NCBI RefSeq assembly: GCF_900182555.1
Contig: NZ_FXTH01000002.1
Coordinates: 124,001-188,000 of the forward strand
DNA: 64,000 nucleotides
Direction of reading: 5' to 3'
Origin: Fodinibius sediminis
GTDB lineage: Bacteria > Bacteroidota > Rhodothermia > Balneolales > Balneolaceae
The translations under genes were made by a program, and so were the position numbers. Below, piece after piece: positions 33,206-49,343 of the stretch. Numbering within the stretch: the stretch's first letter is position 1; the number at the start of each line of letters is the position of its first letter. The notes beneath the pieces are model-generated. The model made no database searches. It was given only the letters and a program-made list of their open reading frames with translations, and was not told the DNA's origin.

Positions 33206-33264
33206 ATTATATACCGGATCTTCAAAACATCAGGTGGAGGTCTTATGCAAAAAATTGTCCGCTA

Positions 33265-34285: not shown

Positions 34286-34370
34286 TATCAGCATTAATGC
34301 TTTTCTGTTTTCCTCTCCATGCAAGCTATAGATCTCCAATAAAATTACAATTGCTATGATATGGCTTAAT

Positions 34371-34873: not shown

Positions 34874-34988
34874 GCAAAATCTGCAGACACACCGGAAGTG
34901 CTTGATCATCCAGCAGAATGCAATACCAGCATCGAATTACCCCACCTAAAAGAGCCCCCTTATGATCAAGGTAAACTATGCCGTTATA

Positions 34989-35618
34989 TCAGCCAATAAT
35001 TTTGGCTGGTACTCCTGCAACCGTTGCATTGGGTCTTACTGAATGAATAACCATGCTTTGTCCACCCACCGTACTATCCCTGCCAATCCGAATATCCTGG
35101 AGGGTAGACACCCCTATTCCCATATCCACGGCCTCTTCAATTATAGTATGCCCTCCCGTATTTACCCCCGGAGCAAAGCTCGAGTATCTGCCCACCGTAG
35201 TATGGTGACCCAGTGAACAGTTTACATTGATCACTACAAAATCTTGGATTTCAGATCTAAAATTAATAGTCGTACCCGGATAAACAATGCATCCCTTCCC
35301 TATGGTTACACTTTGGGAAATCCACGCTCTTTCGTGAATCAGTGTGGGATACAAAAGAGAGGAGTTAGAAGACAATTTCATTAAAAGTTCTCTTTTCACC
35401 TTGGGAAAGGCGATACCAATCACAACAGCCGCATTCTTCATATCCAGGGCTTTATCGACTCCCCCTATCACCCTCAGTCCAAATTGCTGCGTGCCGATCT
35501 TCTCCGGGTCGTCGTCCAAAAAACCGACGACATCGAACTTTTTGGAATATTCACTAATATTCAGCGCCAAATGGCCACCGACACTTCCTGCGCCTATAAT
35601 ATATAGTTTCTTCTTCAT
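34989..35618 (-). CDS. PglD/NeuD-like sugar O/N-acyltransferase
   Basis: 209 residues: an N-terminal Rossmann-like UDP-sugar-binding part (YIIGAGSVGGHLALNI, VVGFLDDDPEKIG) and a C-terminal left-handed beta-helix of hexapeptide repeats with a His-rich active loop (SLGHHTTVGRYSSFAPG). This is the PglD/NeuD acetyltransferase architecture. Next to a PglC-like transferase, and with PglE- and PglF-like genes nearby, it probably acetylates the 4-amino group to give UDP-diacetylbacillosamine. It starts immediately after the PglC-like stop (TAAATG). Third gene of the transcript from the 37289 promoter. Confidence 0.85.
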   Translation of the reverse strand: MKKKLYIIGAGSVGGHLALNISEYSKKFDVVGFLDDDPEKIGTQQFGLRVIGGVDKALDMKNAAVVIGIAFPKVKRELLMKLSSNSSLLYPTLIHERAWISQSVTIGKGCIVYPGTTINFRSEIQDFVVINVNCSLGHHTTVGRYSSFAPGVNTGGHTIIEEAVDMGIGVSTLQDIRIGRDSTVGGQSMVIHSVRPNATVAGVPAKIIG

Positions 35619-36227
35619 TTAGCTTGTCCCCCTGAAAGGCTGCATAGGCTGGGCATCAGACTGATTAACACCCTCCCGCTTTAAAATTTTTATGACAGTG
35701 AGACCCACAATTTTCATGTCCAAGGCAAAGGAAAGGTGGTCAATATAGTAACGGTCATATTCAAATTTTTTCTCCCAGCTGATGGAATTTCGACCGTTTA
35801 CCTGCGCCCAGCCGGTAATACCCGGCCTTACCTCATGTCTTCTCCGCTGTTGTTCGGTGTAATAGGGAATATATTCAAACAACAAAGGTCGGGGACCAAT
35901 CAGGCTCATGTCTCCTTTCAACACATTGATCAGCTGGGGAAGCTCATCCAGCGACAGTTTGCGGATCCGGCTTCCAATTTTGGTCATACGCTCCATGTCC
36001 GGAAGGAGATTGCCCTGCTCATCACGTTTATCCGTCATGGTTTTAAATTTGATAATTTTAAAAGGCTTTTCCCTGAGTCCCGGCCGCCGCTGGTAAAAAA
36101 ACACTGCCCCCTCATTTTGAAAATAAAGTAACAGACCAATAACTAATAACATGGGAAAAGTGACGACCAAAAGCAGCAGTGAAATAACCACATCAAACAA
36201 TCTTTTGCCATATTTTCTATAAACCAT
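35619..36227 (-). CDS. PglC-like phosphoglycosyl transferase (priming sugar transferase)
   Basis: Monotopic bacterial sugar transferase of 202 residues that moves a sugar-phosphate onto undecaprenyl phosphate. It has a single N-terminal re-entrant hydrophobic hairpin and FFYQRRPGLREKPFKIIKFKTM. LSLDELPQLINVLKGDMSLIGPRP carries the catalytic Asp-Glu, and RPGITGWAQVNGRN follows. The short length, without the extra helices of WbaP or WcaJ, matches PglC. It lies between an ATP-grasp gene and the PglD-like gene. Confidence 0.92.
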   Translation of the reverse strand: MVYRKYGKRLFDVVISLLLLVVTFPMLLVIGLLLYFQNEGAVFFYQRRPGLREKPFKIIKFKTMTDKRDEQGNLLPDMERMTKIGSRIRKLSLDELPQLINVLKGDMSLIGPRPLLFEYIPYYTEQQRRRHEVRPGITGWAQVNGRNSISWEKKFEYDRYYIDHLSFALDMKIVGLTVIKILKREGVNQSDAQPMQPFRGTS

Positions 36228-36239
36228 GTCATTATGTAT

Positions 36240-37244
36240 TTAAAACTCTTTTAACGCTGATTTCATCCCCCTTCTCACTGGTAATTGCCATAAAAGTTTA
36301 CACCAGTCGTGGTTGCCTTCGATCAATCCGGGACCCTTTTCAGTTATAACCACATCCCAGCCGATGGATCTATTCTGTGGTCGGTGAAGAGCCGCTTTTT
36401 TTACCATCTCAAGGGTCTCTTCCCAGTAAGGAATTTGGAAGCCGGGAATCTTTACCTTTGTCACAGGATGACATTCTTGTACTTCCTTCGTTATGTCGCT
36501 GTAAACAGCCGGACCGCTCAGTTGACCGGTTGTTTCATCTATGGGAGCCGCCAGGTTTCCGGCCGCCATATTGTCCACCGGTGAGTTGACTGATATCCGA
36601 AGCCTGCAGCCCAGTATCACAACTTCATTCCTGTCGTCGAGCTGTGTAAAGATGCGAACAGTATTGACCGCAGAAGGCGACAGTCGATTTAATTGAGGAT
36701 GCTGCTCAATAAACTCTTCAACCAACGGAAACCCTCTCTTCTCCATAAAATCCAGGATACTTGCACGGTTAAAGTCCGAACATCTTTTAATTTCAACATC
36801 GGTCCCACAATTCCCCTCCGCCGATTTGAAGACAAGCCTTCCGGACGGGTTGGCAAGTATTTCATCTGCAATTTCCGGCTGATTTTTGATCGTCTCGATA
36901 TCAGCGACCCTGTGAACAAAAAAATCGCCGTAGTGCTTATAGAAAAGGGTCTTGTCTTCCAATATATGCCGGTCATTGCGTGGATTCATCCTTAGCTGGT
37001 ATTCATACATATATCCGGTTCCAGCCCATTGCTCCCGCTCTTTTTGGGATAGATCAAAAAAACCAAACTGGAAATACTCCAGTATCGAAATATTATAGGT
37101 GAAGACGCTTCTAACAACATCAGACAGAATAGCGGTCCTGGGTTTCCCCGTAAGCTTGCTGGCATGATTAAGAAATACCCTGAATTTCTCGCGGTCCAGC
37201 TTTTTCAAATAATAGCCGAGATATATAGCCCTGTTCATTTTCAT
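36240..37244 (-). CDS. Sugar-transfer-associated ATP-grasp protein (1)
   Basis: 334 residues of the ATP-grasp group found in polysaccharide loci (ATPgrasp_ST). Visible blocks are RLVFKSAEGNCGTDVEI, NTVRIFTQLDD, and the C-terminal IGWDVVITEKGPGLIEGNHDW holding the metal-binding Glu/Asn. ATP-grasp enzymes form amide or ester bonds through an acyl phosphate; the acceptor here is unknown. I place the start at the ATG at 37244, since the longer frame to 37337 would run through the -24/-12 promoter at 37289-37304. First gene of the unit with the PglC- and PglD-like genes. Confidence 0.78.
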   Translation of the reverse strand: MKMNRAIYLGYYLKKLDREKFRVFLNHASKLTGKPRTAILSDVVRSVFTYNISILEYFQFGFFDLSQKEREQWAGTGYMYEYQLRMNPRNDRHILEDKTLFYKHYGDFFVHRVADIETIKNQPEIADEILANPSGRLVFKSAEGNCGTDVEIKRCSDFNRASILDFMEKRGFPLVEEFIEQHPQLNRLSPSAVNTVRIFTQLDDRNEVVILGCRLRISVNSPVDNMAAGNLAAPIDETTGQLSGPAVYSDITKEVQECHPVTKVKIPGFQIPYWEETLEMVKKAALHRPQNRSIGWDVVITEKGPGLIEGNHDWCKLLWQLPVRRGMKSALKEF

Positions 37245-37288
37245 TTTTAATGACTCACATTTTAAACGGTCAATACCACTTTTTTTAA

Positions 37289-37304
37289 TACAACAGTTAT
37301 GCCA
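37289..37304 (-). promoter_or_regulatory. Sigma-54-type -24/-12 promoter of the ATP-grasp-PglC-PglD unit
   Basis: Minus-strand TGGCATAACTGTTGTA: one base different from the elements at 28906 and 30576, with the same spacing. It is 45 bases before the chosen ATG, so it argues against the longer reading frame upstream. Confidence 0.8.
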
Positions 37305-37440
37305 ATACGGTTTGGGAAAACAGTGATTCTGAGTCATAACTATTTATCAGCTTCATATGCCTTGAGAGTATCTTTCTTAACCGCCCGGATGGAAACCGGT
37401 TAGAGTGACAACCGAACCGTTTCGGGTTATTTTTATATGT

Positions 37441-37459
37441 TCGAGTAAAAATTACTCGA
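37441..37459. promoter_or_regulatory. Palindromic upstream activating site (ATP-grasp unit)
   Basis: Perfect 8-bp arms (TCGAGTAA and TTACTCGA) around AAA, the same core as at 29081-29101. Its centre is about 146 bases upstream of the -24 element. Found in the 265-base gap between two minus-strand genes. Confidence 0.75.
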
Positions 37460-37509
37460 CCTTTCCTGAAAGCATTCCTGTCATCTTCAATCCCTGTGAT
37501 CACTACCGC

Positions 37510-38625
37510 TCACGAATCGGAATTAATTAACGCCCCCAGCTCATTGGCTGCCATAAATTCAACATCCGGCCATCTACTAACGATCTTCTTCAATAGCTCC
37601 TGCAGCGCTTGTAATCCCCTCTCTCTGTTTTTGGGATCGATGTGTCCACAGAAATTTACCCGGTGCGAGCTAATGATTGCAGGACGATTCCATCGAAAAG
37701 CAGCTTCAATCTGTTTCATTGCGTACGATACCCAGTTTACGCCTCGATCTTCGGTAGGCTCAAATACCACGTTGCGTACCAGGTACGTTTGACCCAGCGC
37801 ATTTTTTTTACCGGTATAGTTGAAGACTTTCTTGTACACTCCCCTTCCCTGGTGCTCTTTTTTCAATAAAGGGGTATCAATGTACTGTACTCCCTGCTCT
37901 TTCAAGGGACGGTGTATGATAGGATGTTCACGCCCACCAGGCGGATTAAAATGATTGGGTTTGTAGCCATAAACCTTTTCAAAAGCTTCCAACCCGTCAC
38001 AAATCAAATCTTTATAACGCTCGTTTTCTTCAATCGACCAGAAATCAAAAGCAGCCATTGGTGAGATCGTGCTATAACCACTGGACCTAATGCTTGTATA
38101 CGATCGATTCTGGAGAGCTGTAAGTACTTCATGGTCTCCTGAAATCAACTTCTCCTCAAGTACTTTCAAATTAAGATGCTCTCTTCCGTGGAACAGCGGA
38201 ACAATCAGTTCCTTCTCCATCCCTTCTTTTAACAAATCCCATGCACCCACATAGGCATTGGGTTGCATAATAGATAGTTTCTGAAATGTTTCGGGCAACA
38301 ACTCATAATGGTAGCGCCGGTATCCTGTTTCAGCTATTTTTTCAAAATTAATATTACATGGCACTGCAAAGGAAGTAAAAACAGGATGTTTTCCCCCTTG
38401 GTCCTCCACAGAAGTCAACACCTGAAACAACGCTTCAAGGTCATCACGGGTTTCCAGGGTATCATAGGCATCAAAACGGTTCATGACCTTGAGCCCCTCT
38501 TTGTCCATCTTATCACGGGCAGTTTTTGAATCAACCCGCACGTTCCCATAGTCATCGACCGAAAAAACCACAATCTTTCGCTGTGAACGCCAGCCGATCA
38601 TATTTTTCAAATTTAATGTAATCAT
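37510..38625 (-). CDS. Polysaccharide deacetylase-like hydrolase (1)
   Basis: 371 residues of the glycoside hydrolase/deacetylase beta/alpha-barrel fold. Putative metal motifs are FSVDDYGNVR with the Asp pair, FHGREHLN in the middle and SSHRVNFCG near the end. It is a clear paralogue of the protein at 57357-58484, which shares FHGREH, the YTGKKN or YTGQKN block and the HRVNF motif. It is not the classical NodB pattern of the 39709 gene. Likely acts on a polymer or precursor of this locus; exact substrate unknown. Confidence 0.68.
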   Translation of the reverse strand: MITLNLKNMIGWRSQRKIVVFSVDDYGNVRVDSKTARDKMDKEGLKVMNRFDAYDTLETRDDLEALFQVLTSVEDQGGKHPVFTSFAVPCNINFEKIAETGYRRYHYELLPETFQKLSIMQPNAYVGAWDLLKEGMEKELIVPLFHGREHLNLKVLEEKLISGDHEVLTALQNRSYTSIRSSGYSTISPMAAFDFWSIEENERYKDLICDGLEAFEKVYGYKPNHFNPPGGREHPIIHRPLKEQGVQYIDTPLLKKEHQGRGVYKKVFNYTGKKNALGQTYLVRNVVFEPTEDRGVNWVSYAMKQIEAAFRWNRPAIISSHRVNFCGHIDPKNRERGLQALQELLKKIVSRWPDVEFMAANELGALINSDS

Positions 38626-38696
38626 CTTTTCTACTGAGAACCTTTATCGATATCACTTCAGTTTCACCTTGGCGTCAAACCTATTTTTATTAATTT

Positions 38697-39578
38697 CTAA
38701 TAAAAATAATCAATGAATTTTGCGAATGCTTTATCCGCCCCACTTAACCTGTGGTAGGAAGTGTTCATAGGTTTTTCAGCAATGTATATGTGATCTTGCA
38801 TACGGAATTTATTGCCAGCTACAAGGTGTTTTAAATAGAATGGCCCCCGAGCCGTTAATTTTTTTAAAAAATCTTTATCTCCATCAATCATGAATGACAA
38901 TTCATCCACAGGATTTGATACTAAATTTTCATATTTAATTCTCTTATAAGAAATTCCTATAGAAAGAACATAGGTTAAAAAGTTTTTAAGTAGCCAACTT
39001 CGAAAAACATAGGAGGATCCCAGAGGTACAATATCATGCTCAATCCCCTCTTCTAAGTTTCTAGGAACTTCTTTCTTGTATGAATTCAATACATCACCAA
39101 ACCTCCTGGTTAAATGCATCACCTTAATCTTATAGTTTAACTTTTTTAAAACCAGTAATCTTCCCGGAGCCTTAGAGGAATCTATGATAACTTTTGAATC
39201 AGTAATCTTAAAAATAAGGTCAAACAACTTATTTGTATCTTCCAAAAAGCAATGTAATTTTTTGGATGGATTCCTCAGTGAAATATAGGATGACAAAATA
39301 TATCTTTTACTTGTCAGCCTGCTTTGTAATTTGATATATTCATCCAAATCCAAAGTTCTTACCTTATCCCACTCCCTGATTATGTTGGACCAAATGCTGC
39401 AACTGGGAACCGGGTTCCCGCAAGCACAGTACTCTCTATTTTTTATTCCCTTTTGGGCAAAAAAAATAAGTTCCCCAGAGCTAAATGCACTTTTTTTAGC
39501 TCCTAAAATAACATCGAGTAGGGTCGTACCCGAGTGTCCTTCTCCTGATATGTAAATAATTGTTCTATTATTCATCAT
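38697..39578 (-). CDS. Sulfotransferase-family protein
   Basis: PAPS-dependent sulfotransferase fold. The phosphosulfate loop is IIYISGEGHSGTTLLDVIL at the very N-terminus with the chosen ATG at 39578, giving 293 residues. The 3-prime-phosphate region is seen at VIIDSSKAPGRLLVLKKL and VMHLTRRFGDVLNSYKKE. It would sulfate the polymer or a precursor. The frame stays open up to a TTG at 39701, seven bases after the previous gene, so an extra 41 N-terminal residues are possible. The gene is clearly more AT-rich than the PglC/PglD genes nearby. Confidence 0.72.
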   Translation of the reverse strand: MMNNRTIIYISGEGHSGTTLLDVILGAKKSAFSSGELIFFAQKGIKNREYCACGNPVPSCSIWSNIIREWDKVRTLDLDEYIKLQSRLTSKRYILSSYISLRNPSKKLHCFLEDTNKLFDLIFKITDSKVIIDSSKAPGRLLVLKKLNYKIKVMHLTRRFGDVLNSYKKEVPRNLEEGIEHDIVPLGSSYVFRSWLLKNFLTYVLSIGISYKRIKYENLVSNPVDELSFMIDGDKDFLKKLTARGPFYLKHLVAGNKFRMQDHIYIAEKPMNTSYHRLSGADKAFAKFIDYFY

Positions 39579-39708
39579 GAATAAACCATAGTGATTGCAA
39601 CCTTTTGAATGAGGAACAAGCTTATAAGCCTTTAGAAAACGTTCCCAGTTTTTATCGATAGTGGCTGTAAATTTAATGTCCCATACGTCAACAGATGACA
39701 ATCAGCAG

Positions 39709-40593
39709 TCATATCTTCAGCATTTTTTGGCAAGTCTTCCTTTTTTGGACCAGACTGATCATCGTGTCAAATTCATAGTTCGTCAAAAGCATTTCCAACT
39801 TGGGATAGACCGTTTTTCTATTGAGCCACATTGATTTCATTTTATTACGTTTTAAAAATCGTGCCTTTCTAAGCTCTTCAAAATAGTATTCCGGATACGG
39901 TTCCGTATCCAGTTCATAAGGATGGACATATACAATCGCCGGTCGTTCCCTGATAATCATTTCAAAAGCCTTTTGGGTCAACCATTCCGGAGAAAATCGC
40001 AGGTAGCCTCCTCCACATACCGGCATTTGCCGTCCCAGTATCTGAATGGTAGACATCGGCACCTCCATAAGTTCATACCCGGATGGCGTTTTTATTTTAC
40101 ATATCTCCCTGGGAAAGTCCGGCCAGCCATAACGTATTCCGTTGATCGGCATAATGCTACTGTCGTAGGTAAATCCGGCTTCTGCAATGACATCCAATCC
40201 CCATTCCGTTTCTGGTGTAATGGAAAAGGCGGGCGCCCGGTGTCCCCAAACAGCTTGCCCCGATATATCCTCTATAAGCTTTTTTGCACAGCTTATTTCA
40301 TTAAAAGCCTCCTGTCTTGACATGCAAAAAAACTGCCGATGATGGTATCCGTGTACGCCCAGTTCATGCCCTTCTTCTGCTATCTCCCCTATAAGTTCCG
40401 GAAACTTTTCTGCAACTTTACCCAGAATAAAAAAAGTGGCTTTAACCTTGTGTTCATCCAGAAGACTGAGAATCCTCTGGGTCAATCGAACTACCCGGTC
40501 TGTCTGTTCCGACTGCTTCGAGAATGCATCTCTCATGGCTATGCTTATGCCATCCTCCACATCTATAGTAAAAGCAGCCTTACTCAAACTCAT
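39709..40593 (-). CDS. Polysaccharide deacetylase (NodB/DUF3473 type)
   Basis: 294 residues. NodB metal motifs are FTIDVEDG (catalytic Asp pair), HGYHHRQF (His ligands) and HRAPAFSITPETEWGLDVI. A C-terminal DUF3473-like part includes PMSTIQILGRQMPVCGGGYLR and YVHPYELD. This form is found in exosortase and exopolysaccharide loci and removes N-acetyl groups from polymer sugars. The ATG at 40593 is used. Located between the ATP-grasp gene at 40647 and the sulfotransferase. Confidence 0.88.
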   Translation of the reverse strand: MSLSKAAFTIDVEDGISIAMRDAFSKQSEQTDRVVRLTQRILSLLDEHKVKATFFILGKVAEKFPELIGEIAEEGHELGVHGYHHRQFFCMSRQEAFNEISCAKKLIEDISGQAVWGHRAPAFSITPETEWGLDVIAEAGFTYDSSIMPINGIRYGWPDFPREICKIKTPSGYELMEVPMSTIQILGRQMPVCGGGYLRFSPEWLTQKAFEMIIRERPAIVYVHPYELDTEPYPEYYFEELRKARFLKRNKMKSMWLNRKTVYPKLEMLLTNYEFDTMISLVQKRKTCQKMLKI

Positions 40594-40646
40594 AGCCTTT
40601 TAAATTTAATTTTTACGGCAATCATTCTGAATCGAGATTCCGTTAT

Positions 40647-41693
40647 CTACAATTGTTCCTCAAAAAACGGACCATTCAACGCCTCCGGCAACCAGATTAA
40701 GGGCGCAGAATTCCACTCCAGGAGCACCGGATCCCCCAGCTTATTCACAGTAACATCCCATCCGATAAATCTTAAATAGGGAAAAATTTTATGGGATTTT
40801 ATACACTGATCCAATACCTTTTCATAACTGGGTATAGCAATTGACTTAAATGTGATCCCACTATCCGGATGCCGCTCTCCTATTTTTATCCCGAATCTAT
40901 TATAGGCCCCTTCCGCCAGATGACCGTTGGACTTCACAAAACAAAATCCTCCCCCGGATGATGCATTATCTACTCTTGACTCTCCGATTCCAAATCGCAG
41001 GTAGGCATATTTGATATCTATCTCTCCTTCGTCATTGAGATAAGTGAGAACTCTCACCGTATTAACAGTTTTGTCATTTAGTAATCCTAAATCCTCATGT
41101 TGTTGAATAACCGGCTGGATAATGTAGCTGGATATATGAGAGTAGGTGTCAAGATCAAGCTTCCCAGACTCAATAAATTTGACTCCATGGCCCCCGAACC
41201 CTTCATCTTCCTTTAGAACCACCTCATCATTATAGTCAGCTAGTATGTTTTCTGCTTTATTGATTGCTATCGGCCTGCGATCACTGTCATAGATATTTTT
41301 ACCTATTTTCAATAAAAGAGGATCGGGAGCAAAATTAGGAAACACTTTATGATCAAAAGTCTTGTAGGCACTTATTCTGATGGACTCCGGGTTATATTGT
41401 CGTGATAAACAAGCCAGGAAATAGTCATTCGGGATCCATCCTGTTTTAAATTCTCCCCTGATTTCTGTATAAAGGGATAACCATGGCCAGAAAGAGGAAC
41501 TTCCGAAAGTTTTCTTCGCGTACGATTTCAACATCCTCATTTTTTTCTTGTCCACTATTTTATATCCCCTCCTGTTAACCAACTGTTTTATTAAGCGGTG
41601 TGCTTGCTTTCTGTAAAAATAGAGGCGTATTTTCTCCTCTGAATATCTATGGACTCTCTTTACCATGTCTATGCTATTCATAGCCACCCGCAT
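40647..41693 (-). CDS. Sugar-transfer-associated ATP-grasp protein (2)
   Basis: 348 residues, second member of the ATPgrasp_ST group here. It shows the ATP-binding lysine region VVLKEDEGFGGHGVKFIE, NTVRVLTYLNDEGEI, the SGGGFCFV loop, and the C-terminal IGWDVTVNKLGDPVLLEWN with metal ligands Glu and Asn. It aligns with the 36240 protein in the NTVRxxT and IGWDV blocks but is otherwise diverged. It probably attaches an amino or acyl group to a sugar intermediate; the partner is not known. Confidence 0.75.
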   Translation of the reverse strand: MRVAMNSIDMVKRVHRYSEEKIRLYFYRKQAHRLIKQLVNRRGYKIVDKKKMRMLKSYAKKTFGSSSFWPWLSLYTEIRGEFKTGWIPNDYFLACLSRQYNPESIRISAYKTFDHKVFPNFAPDPLLLKIGKNIYDSDRRPIAINKAENILADYNDEVVLKEDEGFGGHGVKFIESGKLDLDTYSHISSYIIQPVIQQHEDLGLLNDKTVNTVRVLTYLNDEGEIDIKYAYLRFGIGESRVDNASSGGGFCFVKSNGHLAEGAYNRFGIKIGERHPDSGITFKSIAIPSYEKVLDQCIKSHKIFPYLRFIGWDVTVNKLGDPVLLEWNSAPLIWLPEALNGPFFEEQL

Positions 41694-41748
41694 CTATTAT
41701 TTACTGTTAATGATTCAGTCTGTAACGGCTTCTATTTTTCTTCACAAA

Positions 41749-42474
41749 TTAGAATCTGTCATTTAACAATCTTGGAATATACTTCATAATTCCCTTCTCA
41801 TGTTTTTGATAATTATTACGCCACCACCTTCGAAAAGGCAATTGGATACCTGCTACAATCCTTGCCTTCAAAGGCAACCGCCATCCCATTCCTGCCATCG
41901 CCACATCAGTACAGGGACCGCAGAATCCACAGGGACGACCGTTTTGGGGTCGCCTACAAAACCACGTTATTTTCATTACCTCCATCCACCCATTTTTCTC
42001 GGCAATATTAGCCATTTCTTTTTTTGTAAGACCCAATACCGGAAATTCAAAATATTTAAAAATGGGAGAATTAGACTTAAAATAATCGAAGGTCTCACTG
42101 CTGATCACACTTAACTCCATCGGAAAAACCCCAATCTGATCACAGTACCTCGCTAAAATCTCGTATTGAAGATTTATTTTTTTTGACTTTGCAATTTGTC
42201 TGTACTCAGCTGTTATCGCCTTATTTTTTTTAATCTCTCCTATACCTATATAGGAAATTGGGAGAAAAAGATTCTTCATTTCTGGATGCTGCCGTAATAT
42301 TTTACGACGAATATTATGCATAGTATCAATTTCTTTACCCGTACACTCCTGAGCCCTTACGATATAATGGGTTTTAACCATTTTATTTTCCAGAAATAAA
42401 AGTTGTAACAAGCGAAAGGTCGAATCCCATCCCCCCGTCCACAGTAACTGCGTTGTATTATTGATCTCCTGCAT
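41749..42474 (-). CDS. QueC-like PP-loop ATPase (1)
   Basis: 241 residues. The PP-loop is WTGGWDSTFRLL at residues 12-23, a TGGxDS variant of the SGGxDS motif of N-type ATP pyrophosphatases. Four Cys near the C-terminus (WFCRRPQNGRPCGFCGPC) match the zinc site of QueC, the 7-cyano-7-deazaguanine synthase. It is the most divergent of three tandem copies and has a basic C-terminal tail. No queD, queE or other queuosine gene is in the window, so a role in modifying a surface sugar or protein is more likely than tRNA modification. That is inference. Confidence 0.7.
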   Translation of the reverse strand: MQEINNTTQLLWTGGWDSTFRLLQLLFLENKMVKTHYIVRAQECTGKEIDTMHNIRRKILRQHPEMKNLFLPISYIGIGEIKKNKAITAEYRQIAKSKKINLQYEILARYCDQIGVFPMELSVISSETFDYFKSNSPIFKYFEFPVLGLTKKEMANIAEKNGWMEVMKITWFCRRPQNGRPCGFCGPCTDVAMAGMGWRLPLKARIVAGIQLPFRRWWRNNYQKHEKGIMKYIPRLLNDRF

Positions 42475-42481
42475 GGTGCCT

Positions 42482-43216
42482 TCATTTATTTAATAAATTC
42501 ACTACTGGACTATGATAGATTTTCTTCAAATACTTCCCCCCAAACCGAAGCAGCCAGGGTATCCGATGACCCGCCCCCTCTTCTATGGCAATACGGCAGG
42601 GATTACATACTCCACAGGGAATCCCCTTTTTAAACGGATGATAGATCGGATGATGGCAAAACCATGTCAGGTCCAGCAGGTCCAGCCAGTCTTCTCTTTC
42701 TGCTATTTTCTGCATCTCCTGCCTCGTTAAATCAATAATGGGAAGGGTGAAGTACTGGAAAATTGTTTTCACATCGGGGGCCATCGAATTTGTATCCAAA
42801 CAGTCGACTATAGATTCAGAAACACTGTCTTCATTATCCGCTTCAATAGAAAGTTCTACCTCCCTCAATCCATATTGTTTACATAAGCTTGCAAACCAGA
42901 CATATTGTCTACCAACATGCCGTTCTTTTCTAAGGCGTCGCCAGGCGTTTGAAATTTCATGATCTATTTGTATTTCACTTATATCGATATAGATAGTCTG
43001 TTTCAACAGCTCACCAACCATTCCCCCTCTGGTAAGTTCTCCCCTGATTTCATTCATGGCTTGGAGTTCGTGAATAGGCGACCGATGCGAGAGATCAAGG
43101 ACATAAAGCGGCTGCACCTCCCTCTTTTCCAAAAACAGCAATTGAAGAAGCCTGAATGTCGAATCATAACCTCCCGTCCACAGTAATAATGTTGTATTTT
43201 TCGTTGCAGATTCCAC
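42482..43216 (-). CDS. QueC-like PP-loop ATPase (2)
   Basis: 244 residues starting at a GTG (43216). PP-loop WTGGYDSTFRLL at residues 13-24, then FLEKREVQPLYVLDLSHRS. The C-terminal zinc-site-like motif is WFCHHPIYHPFKKGIPCGVC. It is a close paralogue of copy 3: a 123-bp stretch near the N-terminus (43043-43165) is identical to 43835-43957 except for two bases, while the rest has drifted, suggesting gene conversion. The three genes follow each other with 7- and 57-base gaps. Confidence 0.7.
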   Translation of the reverse strand: MESATKNTTLLLWTGGYDSTFRLLQLLFLEKREVQPLYVLDLSHRSPIHELQAMNEIRGELTRGGMVGELLKQTIYIDISEIQIDHEISNAWRRLRKERHVGRQYVWFASLCKQYGLREVELSIEADNEDSVSESIVDCLDTNSMAPDVKTIFQYFTLPIIDLTRQEMQKIAEREDWLDLLDLTWFCHHPIYHPFKKGIPCGVCNPCRIAIEEGAGHRIPWLLRFGGKYLKKIYHSPVVNLLNK

Positions 43217-43273
43217 GATAGCTATTGATCAACTATTTAAAAGATTTTCAATATTTAAGGTCCAGTACCTGTT

Positions 43274-44032
43274 TCATTTAATAAAGTTCATAATTGAACT
43301 ATGGTACATTTTCTTCAAGTACTTCCCCCCAAACCGAAGCAGAAAAGGTATCCTGTGCCCAAACCCCTCCTCAACAGCTATGCGACAGGGGTTGCAAATT
43401 CCACAAGGAGTGCCATTCCTGAAGGGATGATAAATGGGATGATGGCAAAACCACGTTAATCCCATGAGACCCATCCAGTTTTCTCGCTCCGCTATGTGCT
43501 GCATATCCCTTTTGTTCAGATTTATTATCGGAAAAGAGAAATAGTTAAAAATGGTTTTTTCATCGGCATCCATTCTGTTCTCTTCAAGATTATAGGCAAG
43601 GGATTCGGAAATGCTCTCCTCGCTACTTCGCTTTTGAATAGAAAGTTCTATTCCCTCTAAGCCATATTGTTTGCATAAGCTGGCAATCCACACATACTGT
43701 TTGCCGAGATGCCTTTTCTTGCTAATGCGGTGCCAGGCATTTGAAATCTCATCGTTAATATCTATTTCACTCTTGTCTATATAAATAGTGGGTTTCAGCA
43801 GGTCGCCAACCATACCCCTGCTGGCAAGCTCTCTCCTGATTTCATTCATGGCTTGGAGTTCGTGAATAGGCGACCGATGCGAGAGATCAAGGACGTAAAG
43901 CGGCTGTACCTCCCTCTTTTCCAAAAACAGCAATTGAAGAAGCCTGAATGTCGAATCCCAGCCTCCAGTCCATAAGAGAATCGTCAATTCACTGTCGACC
44001 GACTGTCTAATTTGTTCACGTATACTTTTCAT
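43274..44032 (-). CDS. QueC-like PP-loop ATPase (3)
   Basis: 252 residues with a slightly longer N-terminus. PP-loop WTGGWDSTFRLL from residue 21; the C-terminal cysteines are in WFCHHPIYHPFRNGTPCGIC plus NPC. It is upstream-most of the three tandem copies and follows a GNAT-type acyltransferase gene by 39 bases. QueC relatives outside queuosine synthesis are known from antiviral systems (QatC, Cap9 of type IV CBASS), but none of their partners is here. Confidence 0.7.
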   Translation of the reverse strand: MKSIREQIRQSVDSELTILLWTGGWDSTFRLLQLLFLEKREVQPLYVLDLSHRSPIHELQAMNEIRRELASRGMVGDLLKPTIYIDKSEIDINDEISNAWHRISKKRHLGKQYVWIASLCKQYGLEGIELSIQKRSSEESISESLAYNLEENRMDADEKTIFNYFSFPIINLNKRDMQHIAERENWMGLMGLTWFCHHPIYHPFRNGTPCGICNPCRIAVEEGFGHRIPFLLRFGGKYLKKMYHSSIMNFIK

Positions 44033-44071
44033 AGGATTTTATTAATAGACAATGATACCATCAGTGTCTTT

Positions 44072-45067
44072 TCAAATTGAATCATGCATACCTGCAACCA
44101 GGGACCAATTTTCAATCCTGCTTACTTTGTTTTCAATGGCCAAATCAATAGGTAGTGCAACCATATGTTTCATCTTTTTTTTGATAAATCCATTCTTCCA
44201 CAACTTCGGGGTCCCGAACCTCCGGTTATCCATCAGCGCAAGGAAAGCCGCATTCAAAGACCTTGCCACTTCTACAACTTCCCTAAACAAATAACCGGAC
44301 AATGCCGGATCCCCAAGGATATCCACCAGAACCATCTCCCTGCTTGCTCCCTTCCGATTCAGTGTAAAAATGGCCCCGATCATTTTGCTGCACCGCTCAA
44401 TACTCACCATTCCATACTGCCTGTTTGGCCTGTCATGGTATCTCCACTTGTGGAAGCCAGCTTTTCGATTAATGGATACATATTGATCAAAATTCTCTCC
44501 TTCCCTGGCCAGGATATCCAACAGGCCGATATCCAGGCTGAATGCATCATCAATACTCAAAGACGTGGATAACTCACCACTAAGCGTTCCCATCGTCATG
44601 CTTATGGGTTTCAAAATTTTTACCCACCAACTGATTTCATCCAGGTATTGCCCCCCAATTTTAAGATTCACGGGGAGGCTGTTGTTATTCGGGAAATTAA
44701 ACAGCAACTGATGATTGCTGTTTACGGCCTCTTCTATGCCTCTCATTCTTAACTGTTTGAAAATGCCTCTCCCCCTGTAATCAGCGGCAACCACTGAATC
44801 ACAGGGCTGATACGCTTTTATGATGGTGCCCCTGCACTTCAGCTCCCATGGCCACAGATGATCAATGCCAACAATTTTGCCCTCTTCTTCAGCCACATTG
44901 ATGACAGAACTCCCAAAGACACTGGATTTGAATTTCCATTGCCAAAAATCATCCCCCCTTCGGGTAGATGACCTTTGATTCTCAGAAAAAACGGCATCCA
45001 ATAGATTGAGAATCGCCTGTCGATCCCCTTCATCAGCATGCCTTATATTTAGTTTATGGCCTTTCAT
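44072..45067 (-). CDS. GNAT-type acyltransferase
   Basis: 331 residues. The first 150 show a GNAT fold: LNIRHADEGDRQAILNLLDA, then VAADYRGRGIFKQLRMRGI, which resembles the acyl-CoA-binding R/Q-x-x-G-x-G/A loop. The second half resembles a second GNAT-like repeat, as in FemAB-like or polysaccharide-locus acyltransferases. It probably acylates an amino sugar or amino acid attached to the polymer. It lies between a GT2 glycosyltransferase and the QueC-like genes. Confidence 0.65.
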   Translation of the reverse strand: MKGHKLNIRHADEGDRQAILNLLDAVFSENQRSSTRRGDDFWQWKFKSSVFGSSVINVAEEEGKIVGIDHLWPWELKCRGTIIKAYQPCDSVVAADYRGRGIFKQLRMRGIEEAVNSNHQLLFNFPNNNSLPVNLKIGGQYLDEISWWVKILKPISMTMGTLSGELSTSLSIDDAFSLDIGLLDILAREGENFDQYVSINRKAGFHKWRYHDRPNRQYGMVSIERCSKMIGAIFTLNRKGASREMVLVDILGDPALSGYLFREVVEVARSLNAAFLALMDNRRFGTPKLWKNGFIKKKMKHMVALPIDLAIENKVSRIENWSLVAGMHDSI

Positions 45068-45088
45068 CAGCGATCCTATATTTCTGGC

Positions 45089-45892
45089 TCAGTTCAAAAT
45101 TCTCTCATTAGAGAACTTGTACCAGGCAGCCAGATAAAATTGTTTTATTTTTCTTAACAGCTTAAATGGGACAAAATAAAAAGGTGGTTTTACTCCCTGT
45201 AACTTCCATGCCTTTATTTGTCTTTGCTGGGATTTCCACAGCGTTTTCTTGTAGTTTGATGTGCTCCTTCCTCCCATGGAAAACCGTAGGATATAACTAT
45301 CCAGTCTTTTGATTTTCAAATCATTGAAATAGAAATAGCGCAATACAAATTCATAATCCCCACTGCCTCCCAGATCTGTTCGGTAATATCCCAACTGTTC
45401 AATTACTTCTCTTTTTAGATAGATACTTTGATGGGAGGGCATCCAGCCTGCTTTAAAGAGTGACTTCCTGAATTCCGGGCTTCTGTTAACCCTGACGGGT
45501 TCATCTTTCTGATTTACCAGGACACTGTGCCCATACATACCATCAATCTTGTTGGTCACAAAATGTACCGCTATTCTTGCAATAACCCTTTCATCAAACA
45601 ATCGGTCGCCCGCATGGATCAATCCAACAATGTCGCCGGTAGCTGATTTTATTCCTTTGTTTATGGCATCATACATTCCCTTATCCGGCTCTGAAATGAT
45701 TTTATCGATATGACTGCCATATTCACCTATAATGCCCAATGTATTGTCAGAAGACTGCCCATCAACTATGATATATTCAATATCATCATAGGTTTGAGTA
45801 ATAACTGATTCCAGCGTATCTCTGATATCATTTTCGTTATTGTAACAAATCGTAATCAGTGATACCTTAAAACTGTTAGTTTTATTATTCAT
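45089..45892 (-). CDS. Family 2 glycosyltransferase
   Basis: 267 residues. The GT-A start KVSLITICYNNENDIRDTLES, IIVDGQSSDNTLGII and GDIVGLIHAGDRLFD (metal-binding site) are typical of WcaA-like family 2 enzymes. The ATG at 45892 is used, since the frame begins one codon earlier with GTG. It has no membrane helices, so it adds a sugar at the cytoplasmic face. Donor sugar cannot be told from sequence. Confidence 0.87.
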   Translation of the reverse strand: MNNKTNSFKVSLITICYNNENDIRDTLESVITQTYDDIEYIIVDGQSSDNTLGIIGEYGSHIDKIISEPDKGMYDAINKGIKSATGDIVGLIHAGDRLFDERVIARIAVHFVTNKIDGMYGHSVLVNQKDEPVRVNRSPEFRKSLFKAGWMPSHQSIYLKREVIEQLGYYRTDLGGSGDYEFVLRYFYFNDLKIKRLDSYILRFSMGGRSTSNYKKTLWKSQQRQIKAWKLQGVKPPFYFVPFKLLRKIKQFYLAAWYKFSNERILN

Positions 45893-45924
45893 CACAAAAA
45901 TTTTGAAGACTTATACAGATAAGA

Positions 45925-47049
45925 TTATTTTCCATTTATCTGATTTTCACCAATTGACAAAAATCGTTTTGCTCTTTCTTTAGGTGTATTAAAAAGCTTT
46001 AAATTTTTTTTCCCTTCAGATATTAAGTTTTCCTGAATTTCTGGATTTTGAATTAAATTTATAATTTTATTGCTAATATCAACTGGTTCCATAGGGTTAA
46101 AGTAAACTGCGGCTTTTCTACAAACCGTCTTAGCAAAGGGTAAGTCTGAAGTCAGTATAGGCTTACCCATGGCCATTGCTTCCACATAAGATGCAGAAAA
46201 ACATTCCAATAGTGTTGGCAAAAACATCATGTCACATTCACTGTAAAGAGTAGGGCAATGGTCTATGGGTACAGGACCAACATTTATGATATGTTGCTGG
46301 TATTTTTCCTCATTAAACCTTGTGAATGCATCCTCAGGTAAGGTTAAGACGAACTTTACATTCGTGATTTTATTTTTAAGTAATTCATCAACTACTTCTA
46401 AAATGATGTCTAAATTTTTATGACCATAATTGGAGCTAATTGTTAATAGCCTAACTTCACCATCGACTTTCGGGGGTAATTTTTTTTCCTGCGAGATGGA
46501 ATCACTAAACACGCCATTTATAGTATTTGAAACGGTATGTACTTCTACATTTTTTAATAGTTTTTTTAGTCTCTTATTTACATCATCTGTTTGAACTATA
46601 ATTGCATCCGATTGTCGATAAAAATATAGATCAAAGTGTTTTTTTATTTTCCAGTATATCTTCTTTTTACTGGATATTTTATTAAAATATGGAGATTCAG
46701 GATATATGTAATGAGGAATATTGAATGCCGTAATCAATGGAGCTTTAGGTATCCAATAACCATGTCCCCCAGTTGAAATGACAACATCCGGATTAATTTT
46801 TCTTTCCAGCCGATTAAAATATCTACTAGTCTTAATAATATTTAAAAAGCTTGCCCCCGTTCTTCTTTCCATTCTATAAAAGTGAAAATTTGAACCAAAG
46901 GCATCCAAATCCAAAGAATTGTAAATGTTATTACACAAAAAAATATAATAGTCATTAACCGTTATACTCCTGCACTCATTAATAAAGGAGTGAACTACCT
47001 GTTCTGCTCCCCCTTTATAAATCGCGGCTGCATTAATGATTACTTTCAT
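45925..47049 (-). CDS. Family 4 glycosyltransferase
   Basis: 374 residues of the GT-B fold. N-terminal IINAAAIYKGGAEQVVHSF is the acceptor-domain glycine loop. The nucleotide-sugar E-x7-E motif is ECFSASYVEAMAMGKPILTSD. Very AT-rich compared with the housekeeping part of the window. Its start overlaps the end of the next glycosyltransferase gene upstream by 17 bases, so the two are co-translated. Confidence 0.85.
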   Translation of the reverse strand: MKVIINAAAIYKGGAEQVVHSFINECRSITVNDYYIFLCNNIYNSLDLDAFGSNFHFYRMERRTGASFLNIIKTSRYFNRLERKINPDVVISTGGHGYWIPKAPLITAFNIPHYIYPESPYFNKISSKKKIYWKIKKHFDLYFYRQSDAIIVQTDDVNKRLKKLLKNVEVHTVSNTINGVFSDSISQEKKLPPKVDGEVRLLTISSNYGHKNLDIILEVVDELLKNKITNVKFVLTLPEDAFTRFNEEKYQQHIINVGPVPIDHCPTLYSECDMMFLPTLLECFSASYVEAMAMGKPILTSDLPFAKTVCRKAAVYFNPMEPVDISNKIINLIQNPEIQENLISEGKKNLKLFNTPKERAKRFLSIGENQINGK

Positions 47050-48133
47050 GACTTAGGATAAATGAATAAAATTTATCAGCTATTTCATCAGGTATAAAAT
47101 CCTGAATTCCCTTTGGAGCATTTTGTTGGAATTTTTTTCTAACATTCTCATTACTCATCAGTTCTTTCAAACAATCTTTAAAGGCTTCCTGGTCAAATAA
47201 AGGAACCAAAAAGCCATTTTTGTTATTTTCTATCATATCCGAAGGCCCCGCATTGCAATCATAAGCAACTACCGGTAGTCCCGCTGATAAAGCCTCTCCT
47301 ATTACATTTGGAAAGCCCTCTGAACTGGAGCTAAAGGCAAATATCTTGCTTTTGTTGAAATATGGGTCAATATGTTGTTGTTCCCCTTCCAAAAAAACAG
47401 ATCCTTCAGCATCCAATTCCCGAACAAGCGTTTTCAGTTTTCTTGAAAGGTTTTGTTTCTTGGAATCTCCTCCTACGATCACCAGTTTCCAATCGGGTAG
47501 TCCGATATCAACGAACATTTTAATTAATTCATCAAAATGTTTAGTACGTATTAGTCTCCCAATTGACAAAACAACATTTTCCCGCTTCGCCTGACCATTT
47601 GAATGAATCTGACGAATGGGATTACCAATTACTTCAATATTATTATTCCATCGGTTCATAGAACAAATCTTCTTAGCCTCCTTGGTCTGAGCTATATAGC
47701 CTGCCGCTTTCGGGTACAATTTGCTACGGAGAAAATTATGCAACCTTCCAAGATCTTTTCCAGGTTGGCTGCGATCAGAAATATAGACCGGAAAACCAGC
47801 CCCGTACAAAGCAATCAAAACCAGGTTATTCCATATTTCTCCAAAGCTTAAGATGGTATCTGGCTTAATCTTAAGCACCCGGGATCTGAGGAAATAAATT
47901 GTCCGGAGTGTATCTACCGTCCGCCTGGAATTATTAAATATAAAACCAGGCTTATGGACGACCACGGTCTTCGGGATCTCATAAACTACCTTGCGATCCC
48001 TGCCTATGAGAATCAGATGAACTTCGGTACCTGTCCTATCGGCAAAATTGACGGCAAGCTGTGCCATCACTCTTTCCATTCCCCCGATACCAAGCGAGTG
48101 TATAATCAAGCAGATTGTTTTATCAGTACTCAT
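47033..48133 (-). CDS. Family 4 glycosyltransferase
   Basis: 366 residues, GT-B fold. It begins CLIIHSLGIGGMERVMAQLA, and the donor-binding motif is SSSEGFPNVIGEALSAGLPVV with the E-x7-E pair. VLSIGRLIRTKHFDELI marks the start of the second Rossmann domain. It is the first gene of the run 48133 to 37510, and I found no sigma-54-type element in the 168 bases before it (48134-48301). Confidence 0.88.
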   Translation of the reverse strand: MSTDKTICLIIHSLGIGGMERVMAQLAVNFADRTGTEVHLILIGRDRKVVYEIPKTVVVHKPGFIFNNSRRTVDTLRTIYFLRSRVLKIKPDTILSFGEIWNNLVLIALYGAGFPVYISDRSQPGKDLGRLHNFLRSKLYPKAAGYIAQTKEAKKICSMNRWNNNIEVIGNPIRQIHSNGQAKRENVVLSIGRLIRTKHFDELIKMFVDIGLPDWKLVIVGGDSKKQNLSRKLKTLVRELDAEGSVFLEGEQQHIDPYFNKSKIFAFSSSSEGFPNVIGEALSAGLPVVAYDCNAGPSDMIENNKNGFLVPLFDQEAFKDCLKELMSNENVRKKFQQNAPKGIQDFIPDEIADKFYSFILSHESNH

Positions 48134-48301
48134 CTAATAATCACGCTTCATATTCTGAACAACCCGAAAGTGCATTGCATTAGAATTGGATCTATTTATT
48201 GTGGCCCATATCCAAACTCTCTCTGCCTGTTATTTATCCGGCCGTATTATATGACAGTGGCAAGTTGTAATTTACAGCCAGCTTTCTTGTCTCTCTTCCA
48301 G

Positions 48302-48961
48302 CTATTGCACCACCGTAAAAACGGTCTGTACATCTGCAGGCGTCTCTCCAATTACAGCAAACTTGGTACCGGCAGAAAAATCAAAATCCTCGTATCCAGT
48401 TTTAACCCTATCCAAAATTTCTTCTACTTTATCATAGCTAAAATTTGGTTTTCCATCGTTAACCATCCTGCCTGGGAGATCTTCAACGGCAAGTTCCTCC
48501 AAGTCAAATACCGGATTAGTACGAAGAGACCAGATCACCAACTGTATTTCGCGATAGGTAACAGTCGGATCATTTTCCATTAAATCCTGTTTAATATTGA
48601 GCAGATAGTTGATGGGCTTCCATTCTTCCACTTGAAAAGTAGAGTACAGTTTAACTCCTTCGTAAACCCCGCCATCCGAATCAATGGGAGTTTCCCAGTC
48701 AATACACCAGCCCTCTTGAATACCATTTTGAATGATATCATTGGCTTCTATATCACTGAAATCAATCTGATAAAAAGCTTGTGAATCTTTATTCACCTGA
48801 ATTGTAGCACTATCTCCACCTTGAATGGCTTTTACTTCTTCAACCGGATCTAATGAATCGGGAAGATCGGGTTTTTCACCAGTTGCATTATCCTTACAAG
48901 ATACGCTGAAAAGCAAAACGCATGTTACCAAGTATATGGTTAAGTAATTGAAAGGTTTCAT
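48302..48961 (-). CDS. Lipoprotein with a thioester-domain-like motif
   Basis: 219 residues from the ATG at 48961. A lipoprotein signal ends at LFSVSC with Cys22. The mature part has GWCIDWETP (Cys86) and, about 54 residues on, REIQLVIWSL (Gln140). This pairing resembles the YCID...TQxAIW pattern of bacterial thioester domains, which form a Cys-Gln bond used for covalent adhesion and are known mostly from Gram-positive surface proteins. The match is by eye only. It has its own sigma-54-type promoter (49058-49073) and upstream palindrome, placing it in the same regulon as the sugar-nucleotide genes. Confidence 0.6.
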   Translation of the reverse strand: MKPFNYLTIYLVTCVLLFSVSCKDNATGEKPDLPDSLDPVEEVKAIQGGDSATIQVNKDSQAFYQIDFSDIEANDIIQNGIQEGWCIDWETPIDSDGGVYEGVKLYSTFQVEEWKPINYLLNIKQDLMENDPTVTYREIQLVIWSLRTNPVFDLEELAVEDLPGRMVNDGKPNFSYDKVEEILDRVKTGYEDFDFSAGTKFAVIGETPADVQTVFTVVQ

Positions 48962-49057
48962 ATCTATTATCTTTTTTATCATAATTATAAATTGATACCA
49001 TGCCAAGAAGCCAACAAATAGTATTTCTGAACATGATATATCGTATATAAATTATAC

Positions 49058-49073
49058 TACAAGAGTTGTGCCA
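49058..49073 (-). promoter_or_regulatory. Sigma-54-type -24/-12 promoter of the lipoprotein gene
   Basis: Minus-strand TGGCACAACTCTTGTA, with the consensus TGGCAC at -24. It is 96 bases before the lipoprotein start. The upstream palindrome is at 49237-49253. The remainder of the 49007-49343 gap holds no gene. Confidence 0.78.
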
Positions 49074-49236
49074 ACTTAATACTGTCGTCTCCGTCCTGAA
49101 CTTCGATATGCCATAATTATCAGGCTGGATCTAATAAAACCTCACTGAACAAGGTAATATGTTTTAACATGCCCATCACAGTTGTGAGTTACAGTGTTTT
49201 TGATTTTAAAATACCCGAACATGGTAAACACACTTC

Positions 49237-49253
49237 CGAGTAAAAGTTACCCA
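49237..49253. promoter_or_regulatory. Palindromic upstream activating site, degenerate (lipoprotein promoter)
   Basis: CGAGTAAAAGTTACCCA matches the palindrome at 14 of 17 positions, with the left arm perfect and the right arm weaker. Its centre is about 172 bases from the -24 element. Confidence 0.55.
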
Positions 49254-49343
49254 TTCATTTTAAGCTTAGTCCACATTTTTTACATATGTCCATCCATCAA
49301 GAAATAATGATTTCCAGTATTGAAAAGTTGTTTTTTATTTGAC

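Follow-up and report, generated by a model that had tools for sequence, protein, structure and literature searches.

The chemistry of the QueC superfamily is known from queuosine synthesis, from two anti-phage systems (through Cap9 of the type IV cyclic oligonucleotide-based antiphage signalling system, CBASS, and QatC of qatABCD) and, distantly, from sugar amidotransferases. Amide formation in this superfamily is a kind of reaction already known. The substrate motifs of canonical QueC are YxQxHxxE, VPxRN, YPDC and Y189 (Libby et al., PMC13329287), and a Tyr and an Asp read the deazaguanine in QueC and Cap9, where QatC has Thr instead (Gao et al., PMC12424860).

Here we describe three adjoining genes for QueC-like proteins in a 64,000-nucleotide stretch of the Fodinibius sediminis genome, hereafter the window. 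A preliminary description had placed three tandem QueC-like proteins at 41749-44032, and the genes are real: same-strand open reading frames (ORFs), each with a PP-loop and four Cys residues (Table 1). They fall in a branch of the superfamily that is scattered and, it appears, undescribed; no QueC-like family in polysaccharide loci or beside ATP-grasp genes was found described in the excerpted, openly licensed literature. We propose that, rather than making the tRNA base queuosine, its members may form amides by way of an adenylate, in concert with ATP-grasp ligases and on a carboxylate linked to a glycan, a tentative reading that falls just short of an even call.

QueC-like proteins with replaced substrate motifs

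Copies 2 and 3 are 69% identical, and copy 1 shares 36-40% identity with either. The top Pfam match of each copy was PF06508 (QueC), at or just under its cut-off of 22 bits (22.0, 19.5 and 19.6), and the sole PADLOC match was its QueC model. The NCBIfam QueC model TIGR00364, with a cut-off of 150.3 bits, scored only 19.5, 14.8 and 11.9 bits, and the NCBIfam QatC model (cut-off 280 bits) gave copy 2 10.7 bits and copies 1 and 3 no match. A sequence search of the PDB with copy 3 returned nothing at E 1. All three copies carry TGGxDS instead of the canonical SGGxDS, a conservative change; the canonical C(x)8CxxCxxC is exact in copy 1, with x13 replacing x8 in copies 2 and 3.

AlphaFold models of copy 3 (predicted local distance difference test, pLDDT, 92.5; predicted template modelling score, pTM, 0.89) and copy 1 (90.9 and 0.86) revealed QueC-type PP-loop folds. 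Cap9 headed the solved structures in the VIA-align lists of both models, with Z 12.4 for copy 3 (162 aligned, root-mean-square deviation 3.5), ahead of YcfA (11.0), TtuA (10.2), QueC 3bl5 (10.0) and QatC (9.6), and Z 12.8 for copy 1, ahead of QatC (11.2), QueC (11.0) and YcfA (10.5), differences in Z within 1 being counted as ties. Foldseek likewise ranked Cap9 first for copy 3 (3.6e-5). With a PP-loop ATP pyrophosphatase fold, a C-terminal four-Cys motif and models matching Cap9, QueC and QatC among others, the three proteins are members of the QueC superfamily (PF06508 fold).

The family occurs in 7 of 296 genomes of the phylum, that of the window included. A contig scan yielded 78 loci from the best 80 of 106 relatives; with the window, the total was 104 members at 87 loci, or 97 members at 81 loci once six loci with repeated rows were dropped (L007, L011, L012, L013, L048 and L064; loci are designated L, genomes G). 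Record titles of the loci name Bacteroidota, Balneolota, Chlorobiota, Pseudomonadota, Chloroflexota, Synergistota, Nitrospinota, Actinomycetota, Bacillota, Cyanobacteriota and others, and many members come from metagenome-assembled genomes (MAGs). The member of G119, a genome of the host's taxonomic family, is identical in protein sequence to that of L035, whose record is titled Balneolaceae, and the class of G021, searched at 1e-12 for further loci, gave G021 alone (1 of 395). Neither copy 3 nor the protein of viral contig L112 had a tblastn match at 1e-5 in plasmid and phage records.

PF06508 matched 71 of 79 members at E 0.01 or better (best 7.7e-8), a 79-row family profile found QueC 3bl5 in the PDB at 9.2e-4, and the QatC model matched one of the 79, at 0.0013. 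Across the relatives, a near-invariant W-[TS]-G-G-W-D-S loop, Gln112 and four Cys residues stand out (residue numbers are those of full-length copy 3). The PP-loop Asp and Ser are kept in 101 of 101 rows and the four Cys in 104 of 104; with both models being QueC-type PP-loop proteins, the motifs are thus beyond chance. About nine tenths of the rows or more retain W21, T22, G24, D26, S27, T28, P44, Y46, E58 and Q112, and likewise P168, K174, F195, C196, P199, C210, C213, P215 and C216. The TGG loop, singled out in the preliminary description, is indeed seen in the window but is no local oddity, as its first position is Thr in 99 and Ser in 2 of 101 rows family-wide. The last 40 residues have a median net charge of +8 in the 97 members versus +1 in a comparison set of 934 further ORFs from these loci, and the tail after the last Cys pair is positive in all 97 measured members (the 28-residue tail of E. 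coli QueC carries +4); such a basic C-terminal tail could serve membrane or polyanion binding.

PP-loop columns are missing in 3 of the 104 alignment rows, which represent two degenerate members: the middle copy of L025 (8989-9660) and one truncated G063 gene (contig C1, 1982001-1982713; L011 and L013), split in two pieces with a stop in one. Eight members, L034 and L072 included, have N-terminal extensions of more than 60 residues that by eye look like upstream start calls, not domains. In many Lysobacteraceae loci (e.g. L065, L070, L084, L086) the member and a class III aminotransferase gene are divergently oriented (14 Lysobacteraceae loci plus L023); an iron-containing redox enzyme (8 loci) or a protein with a glyoxalase domain (4 loci) is often present too.

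The columns that in QueC correspond to the motifs for 7-carboxy-7-deazaguanine (CDG) are replaced. YxQxHxxE gives way to DxxRxSxxxE, in a region where the alignment is loose; in VPxRN, the column of E. coli R99 varies and that of N100 holds Gln in every one of the 104 rows; YPDC is lost, the columns of Y131 and the rest of this motif varying over the 104 rows; and the Y189 column is His in 86 of 104. The equivalent of K165 is kept in 100 of 104. This loss points away from CDG, although it is not strictly decisive. With scores far under cut-off and the motifs that QueC requires replaced, the three copies have a QueC-type fold but are not canonical QueC, in agreement with the preliminary description.

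The host genome (4.43 Mb, 97.9% complete) has no canonical queC, PF06508 matching just N-terminal stretches of two longer ORFs, and a family A1 profile found these three copies alone. It does hold tgt, two PTPS (queD-like) genes and a QueE-like gene, with no match to queF; the queD-like and queE-like genes share the contig with the three copies at a distance of nearly 120 kb, which agrees with the earlier remark that no other queuosine gene is near. The queE-like gene and a queD-like gene stand close together at L103 6527-7174 and 8144-8539 (host contig C2, ~46.5-48.5 kb). None of 12 genus genomes passes the TIGR00364 cut-off, and QueE-like genes, all under the model cut-off, occur in 12 of 12. 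Genus-mate G081 has a different full-length QueC-like gene (75.8 bits, under cut-off), which directly follows a PfkB/deoxyribosyltransferase-like ORF (by eye; L105 6304-8092), as in cluster 4 of PMC13329287. Across the host taxonomic family, PF06508 finds a near full-length match in 4 of 58 genomes.

Six genus-mates searched (G081, G151, G227, G250, G274 and G286) lack our family as well as canonical queC, and the family is therefore not a substitute for a missing QueC. The preliminary description had taken a fully kept pocket plus a genome without another queC as the mark of ordinary QueC enzymes; no canonical queC is indeed present elsewhere, but the CDG motifs are not conserved, and this check thus does not refute the view that the family is new. 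That the copies are ordinary QueC supplying 7-cyano-7-deazaguanine (preQ0) is consistent with a genome that has tgt and queD-like and queE-like genes but no canonical queC; given the lost motifs, the low TIGR00364 scores, the lack of a queF match and the distribution in the genus, it is nonetheless extremely improbable, and we rejected it on motifs, score and genus distribution.

A one-model survey, which matched 10 of 14 control genomes and was run without L084, found QueE in 45 of 49 family-bearing genomes (in G700 merely at 8.4e-6). The four genomes without a match are three MAGs (Anaerolineaceae, KSB1 and Tissierellia) and a Modestobacter strain whose intact member has a TupA gene next to it, which makes CDG an unlikely substrate for the whole family. 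These figures bear on protein modification of the Cap9/QatC kind, in which CDG or another acyl group would be joined to an amino group of a partner protein. The 45 genomes with QueE are in line with it, as are the rank of Cap9 as best structural match of both models, the absence of canonical motifs from QatC too (PMC13329287, PMC12424860) and the viral members in L112 and L113 that follow a large tail-like ORF; moreover, a host with queD-like and queE-like genes and no canonical queC may make CDG that QueC does not consume. However, the deazaguanine-reading Tyr and Asp of QueC and Cap9 are not kept (PMC12424860), four genomes lack a QueE match, the six genus-mates have QueE but not the family, and the gene maps show no conserved partner gene. 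Nor did PADLOC find any CBASS or Qat model among 139 near neighbours of 41 other loci (a set from which the window itself, 28 loci of Lysobacteraceae and other close repeats had been removed; proteins under 700 residues were scanned, 139 of the 148 near ones and 97 of the 98 far ones). Its matches were to 13 models, with one or two members for each (candidate models of the Mads, reverse-transcriptase, CARF, MzaA and PDC kinds). No cGAS/DncV-like nucleotidyltransferase (CD-NTase) was matched by PADLOC in these 139 proteins or by Pfam among the scanned window neighbours. We consider such protein modification unlikely, and the antiviral use raised in the preliminary description found no support in this neighbour scan.

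Two paralogue types and their tandem copies

In the family tree, copies 3 and 2 join the first copy of L014 with support 100/99 (type A), and copy 1 joins the second copy of L014 together with L015, L016 and L017 with support 100/95 (type B). As L014 also has the gene order of the window, GT2-GNAT-A-B (GT, glycosyltransferase), the triplet represents an old A/B pair plus a further A duplicate. The "triplication" of the preliminary description therefore comprises three genes but two paralogue types, one of them duplicated. For the type B genes of L014-L017 the setting is in each case a similar exopolysaccharide cluster; the MAGs concerned carry the labels Chitinophagaceae, Balneolaceae and an archaeon, though errors in some labels or bins are possible.

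The five rows of clade B depart from the remaining 92 at 5 of 55 conserved positions, namely 49, 52, 110, 115 and 197. Positions 52, 110 and 197 correspond to R38, G98 and Y189 of E. coli QueC, inside the motifs, and 49 and 115 to D34 and F103, just outside them. Since these changes fall in or just beside the QueC substrate motifs, different acceptors are plausible for A versus B. Copies 2 and 3 carry His52 where 89 of 92 rows have Arg, and the Asp49 to Arg change also occurs in one copy each of L028 and L043. The earlier suggestion that triplication reflects different acceptors can accordingly stand for A versus B but not for three specificities, as copies 2 and 3 are identical at six motif columns.

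At least two members are present in 10 of 81 loci. All copies agree at the six motif columns in five of eight other arrays (L006, L020, L022, L025 and L042), while those of L021, L028 and L043 differ at one or two. Taking the pocket, in a sequence-based usage, as the columns aligned to the QueC motifs, the five agreeing arrays led us to reject new pockets as a general cause of tandem arrays; in them, dosage or hetero-oligomers are as likely as new specificities. In the tree, strong support groups the copies of L006, L020, L021 and L022 and the A pair of the window by locus. For this A pair, copies 2 and 3, dN/dS is 0.14, dS is 0.32 over codons 17-61 versus 2.36 over codons 62-252, and 116 of 120 bases are alike over codons 29-68, with far fewer elsewhere. 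This pattern marks two old duplicates, maintained by purifying selection, that share a gene-conversion patch.

Neighbouring ATP-grasp genes and viral members

Genes for ATP-grasp ligases of three sets (the sugar-transfer-associated ATPgrasp_ST, TupA and a third set) adjoin members in 11 of 81 loci, in several phyla. By rank from the member, they make up 12 of 159 genes at rank 1, 2 of 145 at rank 2, 0 of 132 at rank 3 and 2 of 597 at rank 4 or beyond (Fisher, ranks 1-2 versus at least 4, 1.2e-5). Within-locus permutation over the 14 loci with such a gene gave 12 observed versus 4.4 expected (p 5e-5), and the control families GT4, GT2, SDR, aminotransferase and deacetylase were not enriched (p 0.27-0.94); in these statistics, the loci are not fully independent and the window is counted in. 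Pfam assigned 6 TupA and 5 ATPgrasp_ST proteins in the near set of 139, and neither family was among the best 25 of 159 listed for the far set of 97. Neighbourhoods are otherwise variable across loci.

TupA has a part in making teichuronopeptide, a wall polymer of poly-glutamate and poly-glucuronate (PMC8153356). In a Marinobacter locus (L045), the member is flanked by PGA_cap and a Mur-ligase/peptidyl-tRNA-hydrolase-like fusion.

In the window, the three copies belong to a polysaccharide-type gene run on the minus strand, from 48133 down to 34989, with gaps of 55, 7, 57 and 39 bp between the ATP-grasp gene, copies 1, 2 and 3 and the GNAT gene, in that order (Table 1). Of the neighbours named in the preliminary description, the GNAT, ATP-grasp and glycosyltransferase genes were recovered, whereas the sulfotransferase match is weak and below cut-off. 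The cluster of 37510..38625 (c14) is also found near type B genes in L015, L016 and L017. No RNA family reached its gathering score in window 33000-50000. Beyond the run, adjoining ORFs that look leucine-rich-repeat-like by eye (window 49420-50745 and 50938-53769) share 413 identical C-terminal residues, a recent duplication or conversion.

Table 1. Features of the QueC-like locus, in window positions
Feature	Position	Strand	Basis
QueC-like protein type A, copy 3	43274..44032	-	ORF, 252 aa, first in transcription order
PP-loop TGGWDS, copy 3	43952..43969	-	sequence
Four-Cys motif C-x13-C-x2-C-x2-C, copy 3	43385..43447	-	sequence
QueC-like protein type A, copy 2	42482..43216	-	ORF, 244 aa, GTG start
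PP-loop TGGYDS, copy 2	43160..43177	-	sequence
Four-Cys motif C-x13-C-x2-C-x2-C, copy 2	42596..42658	-	sequence
QueC-like protein type B, copy 1	41749..42474	-	ORF, 241 aa; residues changed in/beside substrate motifs
PP-loop TGGWDS, copy 1	42421..42438	-	sequence
Four-Cys motif C-x8-C-x2-C-x2-C, copy 1	41911..41958	-	sequence
Sugar-transfer-associated ATP-grasp ligase, directly downstream of copy 1	40647..41693	-	PF14397 ATPgrasp_ST 1.3e-37
GNAT-family protein, directly upstream of copy 3	44072..45067	-	PF13527 9.7e-15
Second sugar-transfer-associated ATP-grasp ligase	36240..37337	-	PF14397 5.6e-47
Polysaccharide deacetylase, XrtA-system-like	39709..40593	-	PF01522 1e-21; TIGR03006 246.4 bits, under cut-off 276.2
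Possible sulfotransferase (weak)	38697..39701	-	PF13469 19.6 bits, cut-off 27
Deacetylase-like protein (weak)	37510..38625	-	PF01522 16.4 bits, cut-off 23.1
Bacterial sugar transferase	35619..36227	-	PF02397 4.5e-63
PglD-like hexapeptide acyltransferase	34989..35618	-	PF17836 9.6e-8, PF00132 6.7e-9
Glycosyltransferase	45089..45895	-	PDB glycosyltransferase 9omm 1.7e-19
Glycosyltransferase (group 1 type)	47033..48133	-	clusters with L064:5040-6140 (itself PF00534 3.3e-44)
Gene without class	45925-47049	-	no cluster mates; sole PDB match at 1e-3 an adrenergic-receptor entry, 6e-4

Members also occur in viral contigs. In L114, a 601-residue ORF (2906-4711) has a family member at its C-terminus (LWTGGWD from residue 384) and directly follows a 443-residue ORF that matches UDP-glucose dehydrogenase (4e-127). 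The same sequence recurs in full in L115 and in pieces in L116, L119 and L120, so that a single virus type accounts for all five contigs; the fusion itself had no tblastn match at 1e-5 in phage records. Homology links the N-terminal part of the fusion with the gene that immediately follows the member of L009/L064, both from one genome (24% identity, tblastn 1e-9; phmmer 7e-11), and a profile of both proteins finds a gene beside the four-copy array of L042 (1.6e-7). By eye, this part looks ATP-grasp-like, with a GxxDY...WEIN motif; PDB matches of the motif region were RimK proteins (0.054 and 0.06), with further rows for an ATP-grasp ligase (0.082), a D-Ala-D-Ala ligase (1.1) and an MvdD-like protein (1.7) among 11 that include unrelated ones. 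L114 therefore encodes an apparent ATP-grasp-like/QueC-like fusion, for which the domain call is weak. The large ORF after the fusion looks terminase-like by eye and has no PDB match. Stand-alone members in L112 (4010-4750) and L113 (3977-4696) each come directly after a large ORF that by eye is tail- or adhesin-like.

Proposed amide chemistry and comparison with described systems

The data show the family, its predicted fold and conservation, the loss of the QueC substrate motifs, the ATP-grasp adjacency, the polysaccharide gene run and the purifying selection on copies 2 and 3, and, with less certainty, the viral fusion; we infer the adenylation, the amide product and the glycan substrate as follows. 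Each copy would be a PP-loop ATP pyrophosphatase with a four-Cys, presumably zinc, site that binds ATP at TGGxDST; a carboxylate would be adenylated with release of pyrophosphate, and ammonia or an amine would attack the adenylate to give an amide, as in the first half of the QueC reaction and in the Cap9-type reaction. The carboxylate would probably not be CDG but a uronic acid or an amino acid on a polysaccharide precursor, the amino acid being placed by the adjoining ATP-grasp ligase, and type A would have another carboxylate or acceptor than type B. The reading that fits these data best is amide formation on a surface glycan, one of the steps put forward in the preliminary description. The broader proposal of a novel glycan-decorating class, in which QueC-type amide synthetases and ATP-grasp ligases would place amino-acid or amide decorations on surface-polysaccharide carboxylates with no deazaguanine involved, sometimes as tandem sets with distinct pockets and once as a viral fusion, is speculative, and we regard it as rather doubtful.

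Several observations weigh against amide synthesis in concert with ATP-grasp ligases. An adjoining ATP-grasp gene of the three sets is missing from 70 of 81 loci, including 28 of 28 Lysobacteraceae loci, many members stand alone, and ATP-grasp was picked for the adjacency test post hoc, with the gene maps already viewed. Glycosyltransferases are not enriched beside members and are hardly commoner near than far. As for the fold, QueC is not among the best 50 Foldseek matches listed for copy 3, for which TtuA (Z 10.2) ties with QueC. The PDB matches of the L114 N-terminal part are weak (E 0.054-1.7), probabilities were low when hhalign compared this part with the three ATP-grasp sets (ST, TupA and the third), and for the L009 neighbour by itself neither the PDB nor Pfam gave a match. 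UDP-glucose-dehydrogenase-like genes occur in only four other loci (L061, L079, L081 and L090) and are absent from the window at 1e-10, which leaves a general link to uronic acids unproven.

Two further alternatives are sugar amidotransferases and nitrile synthetases. In a sugar amidotransferase like NASAT/WbpG, ammonia and a sugar N-acetyl or carboxyl group would yield an amidine or uronamide. NASAT, which acts in O-antigen synthesis, pairs a PP-loop with a zinc-tetracysteine site (PMC10607449), and the deacetylase, sugar transferase and PglD-like genes of the polysaccharide run would suit such an activity. Its CxxC-Xn-[GN]xCxxC motif is absent, however; our proteins have C-x8/13-C-x2-C-x2-C, with the first Cys alone after T-W-F. 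No NASAT model was among the seven NCBIfam families matched by 79 members, and we consider this alternative decidedly unlikely. LpNASAT (8WEX) does not appear among the best 50 structural matches listed for either model. Nitrile synthetases, performing the full two-step QueC reaction on a new acceptor, have precedents in QueC, the PP-loop-type PesC and ArtA, which make nitriles (PMC13060819), and ArtA 9lei was among the matches listed (Foldseek E 1.3e-3; Z 8.7 with copy 1). Yet the QueC residues with inactive mutants (Y35, R99, Y131 and Y189; PMC13329287) are mostly not kept, and no neighbourhood pointer to nitriles was seen; nitrile formation, which the preliminary description had offered beside amide formation, found no specific support and is very unlikely.

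If amide synthesis on a glycan carboxylate holds true, it would extend QueC chemistry to surface-polymer decoration, possibly with a one-protein version of the enzyme pair in a virus. Such a step was expected in the preliminary description to be new; the branch is apparently undescribed, but a glycan role would not be entirely without precedent in a superfamily that has the NASAT/WbpG sugar amidotransferases. The adjacency of QueC-like and ATP-grasp genes provides testable enzyme pairs, and PF06508-like matches in polysaccharide loci should not be named 7-cyano-7-deazaguanine synthase.

Compared with canonical QueC (TIGR00364, PF06508 cluster 1), the family shares the PP-loop fold, the C-terminal four Cys, a length of ~240 residues and the conserved Lys, but has TGG for SGG, Trp before DS, replaced CDG motifs, a basic tail and no queuosine neighbours. 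Cap9 is the best structural match, but the window proteins lack its Y/FxQ(x)5E and YxDC, have no CD-NTase neighbour in the scans above, are longer and possess a basic C-terminal tail. QatC shares the fold and the loss of CDG motifs; it has ~400 residues (PMC13329287) versus 241-252 in the window proteins, near which Qat neighbours were not found. YcfA of Erwinia amylovora is a PP-loop structure match to both models, aligned just to about residue 197 of the copy 3 model, and its likeness is structural. NASAT/WbpG likewise combine a PP-loop and a tetracysteine motif in surface-glycan loci (PMC10607449, PMC13329287), with a different Cys layout. ATP-grasp chemistry runs via an acyl phosphate, not an adenylate, and TupA (PF14305) and ATPgrasp_ST (PF14397), which differ in fold, are possible partners by adjacency and by the apparent fusion to an ATP-grasp-like domain.

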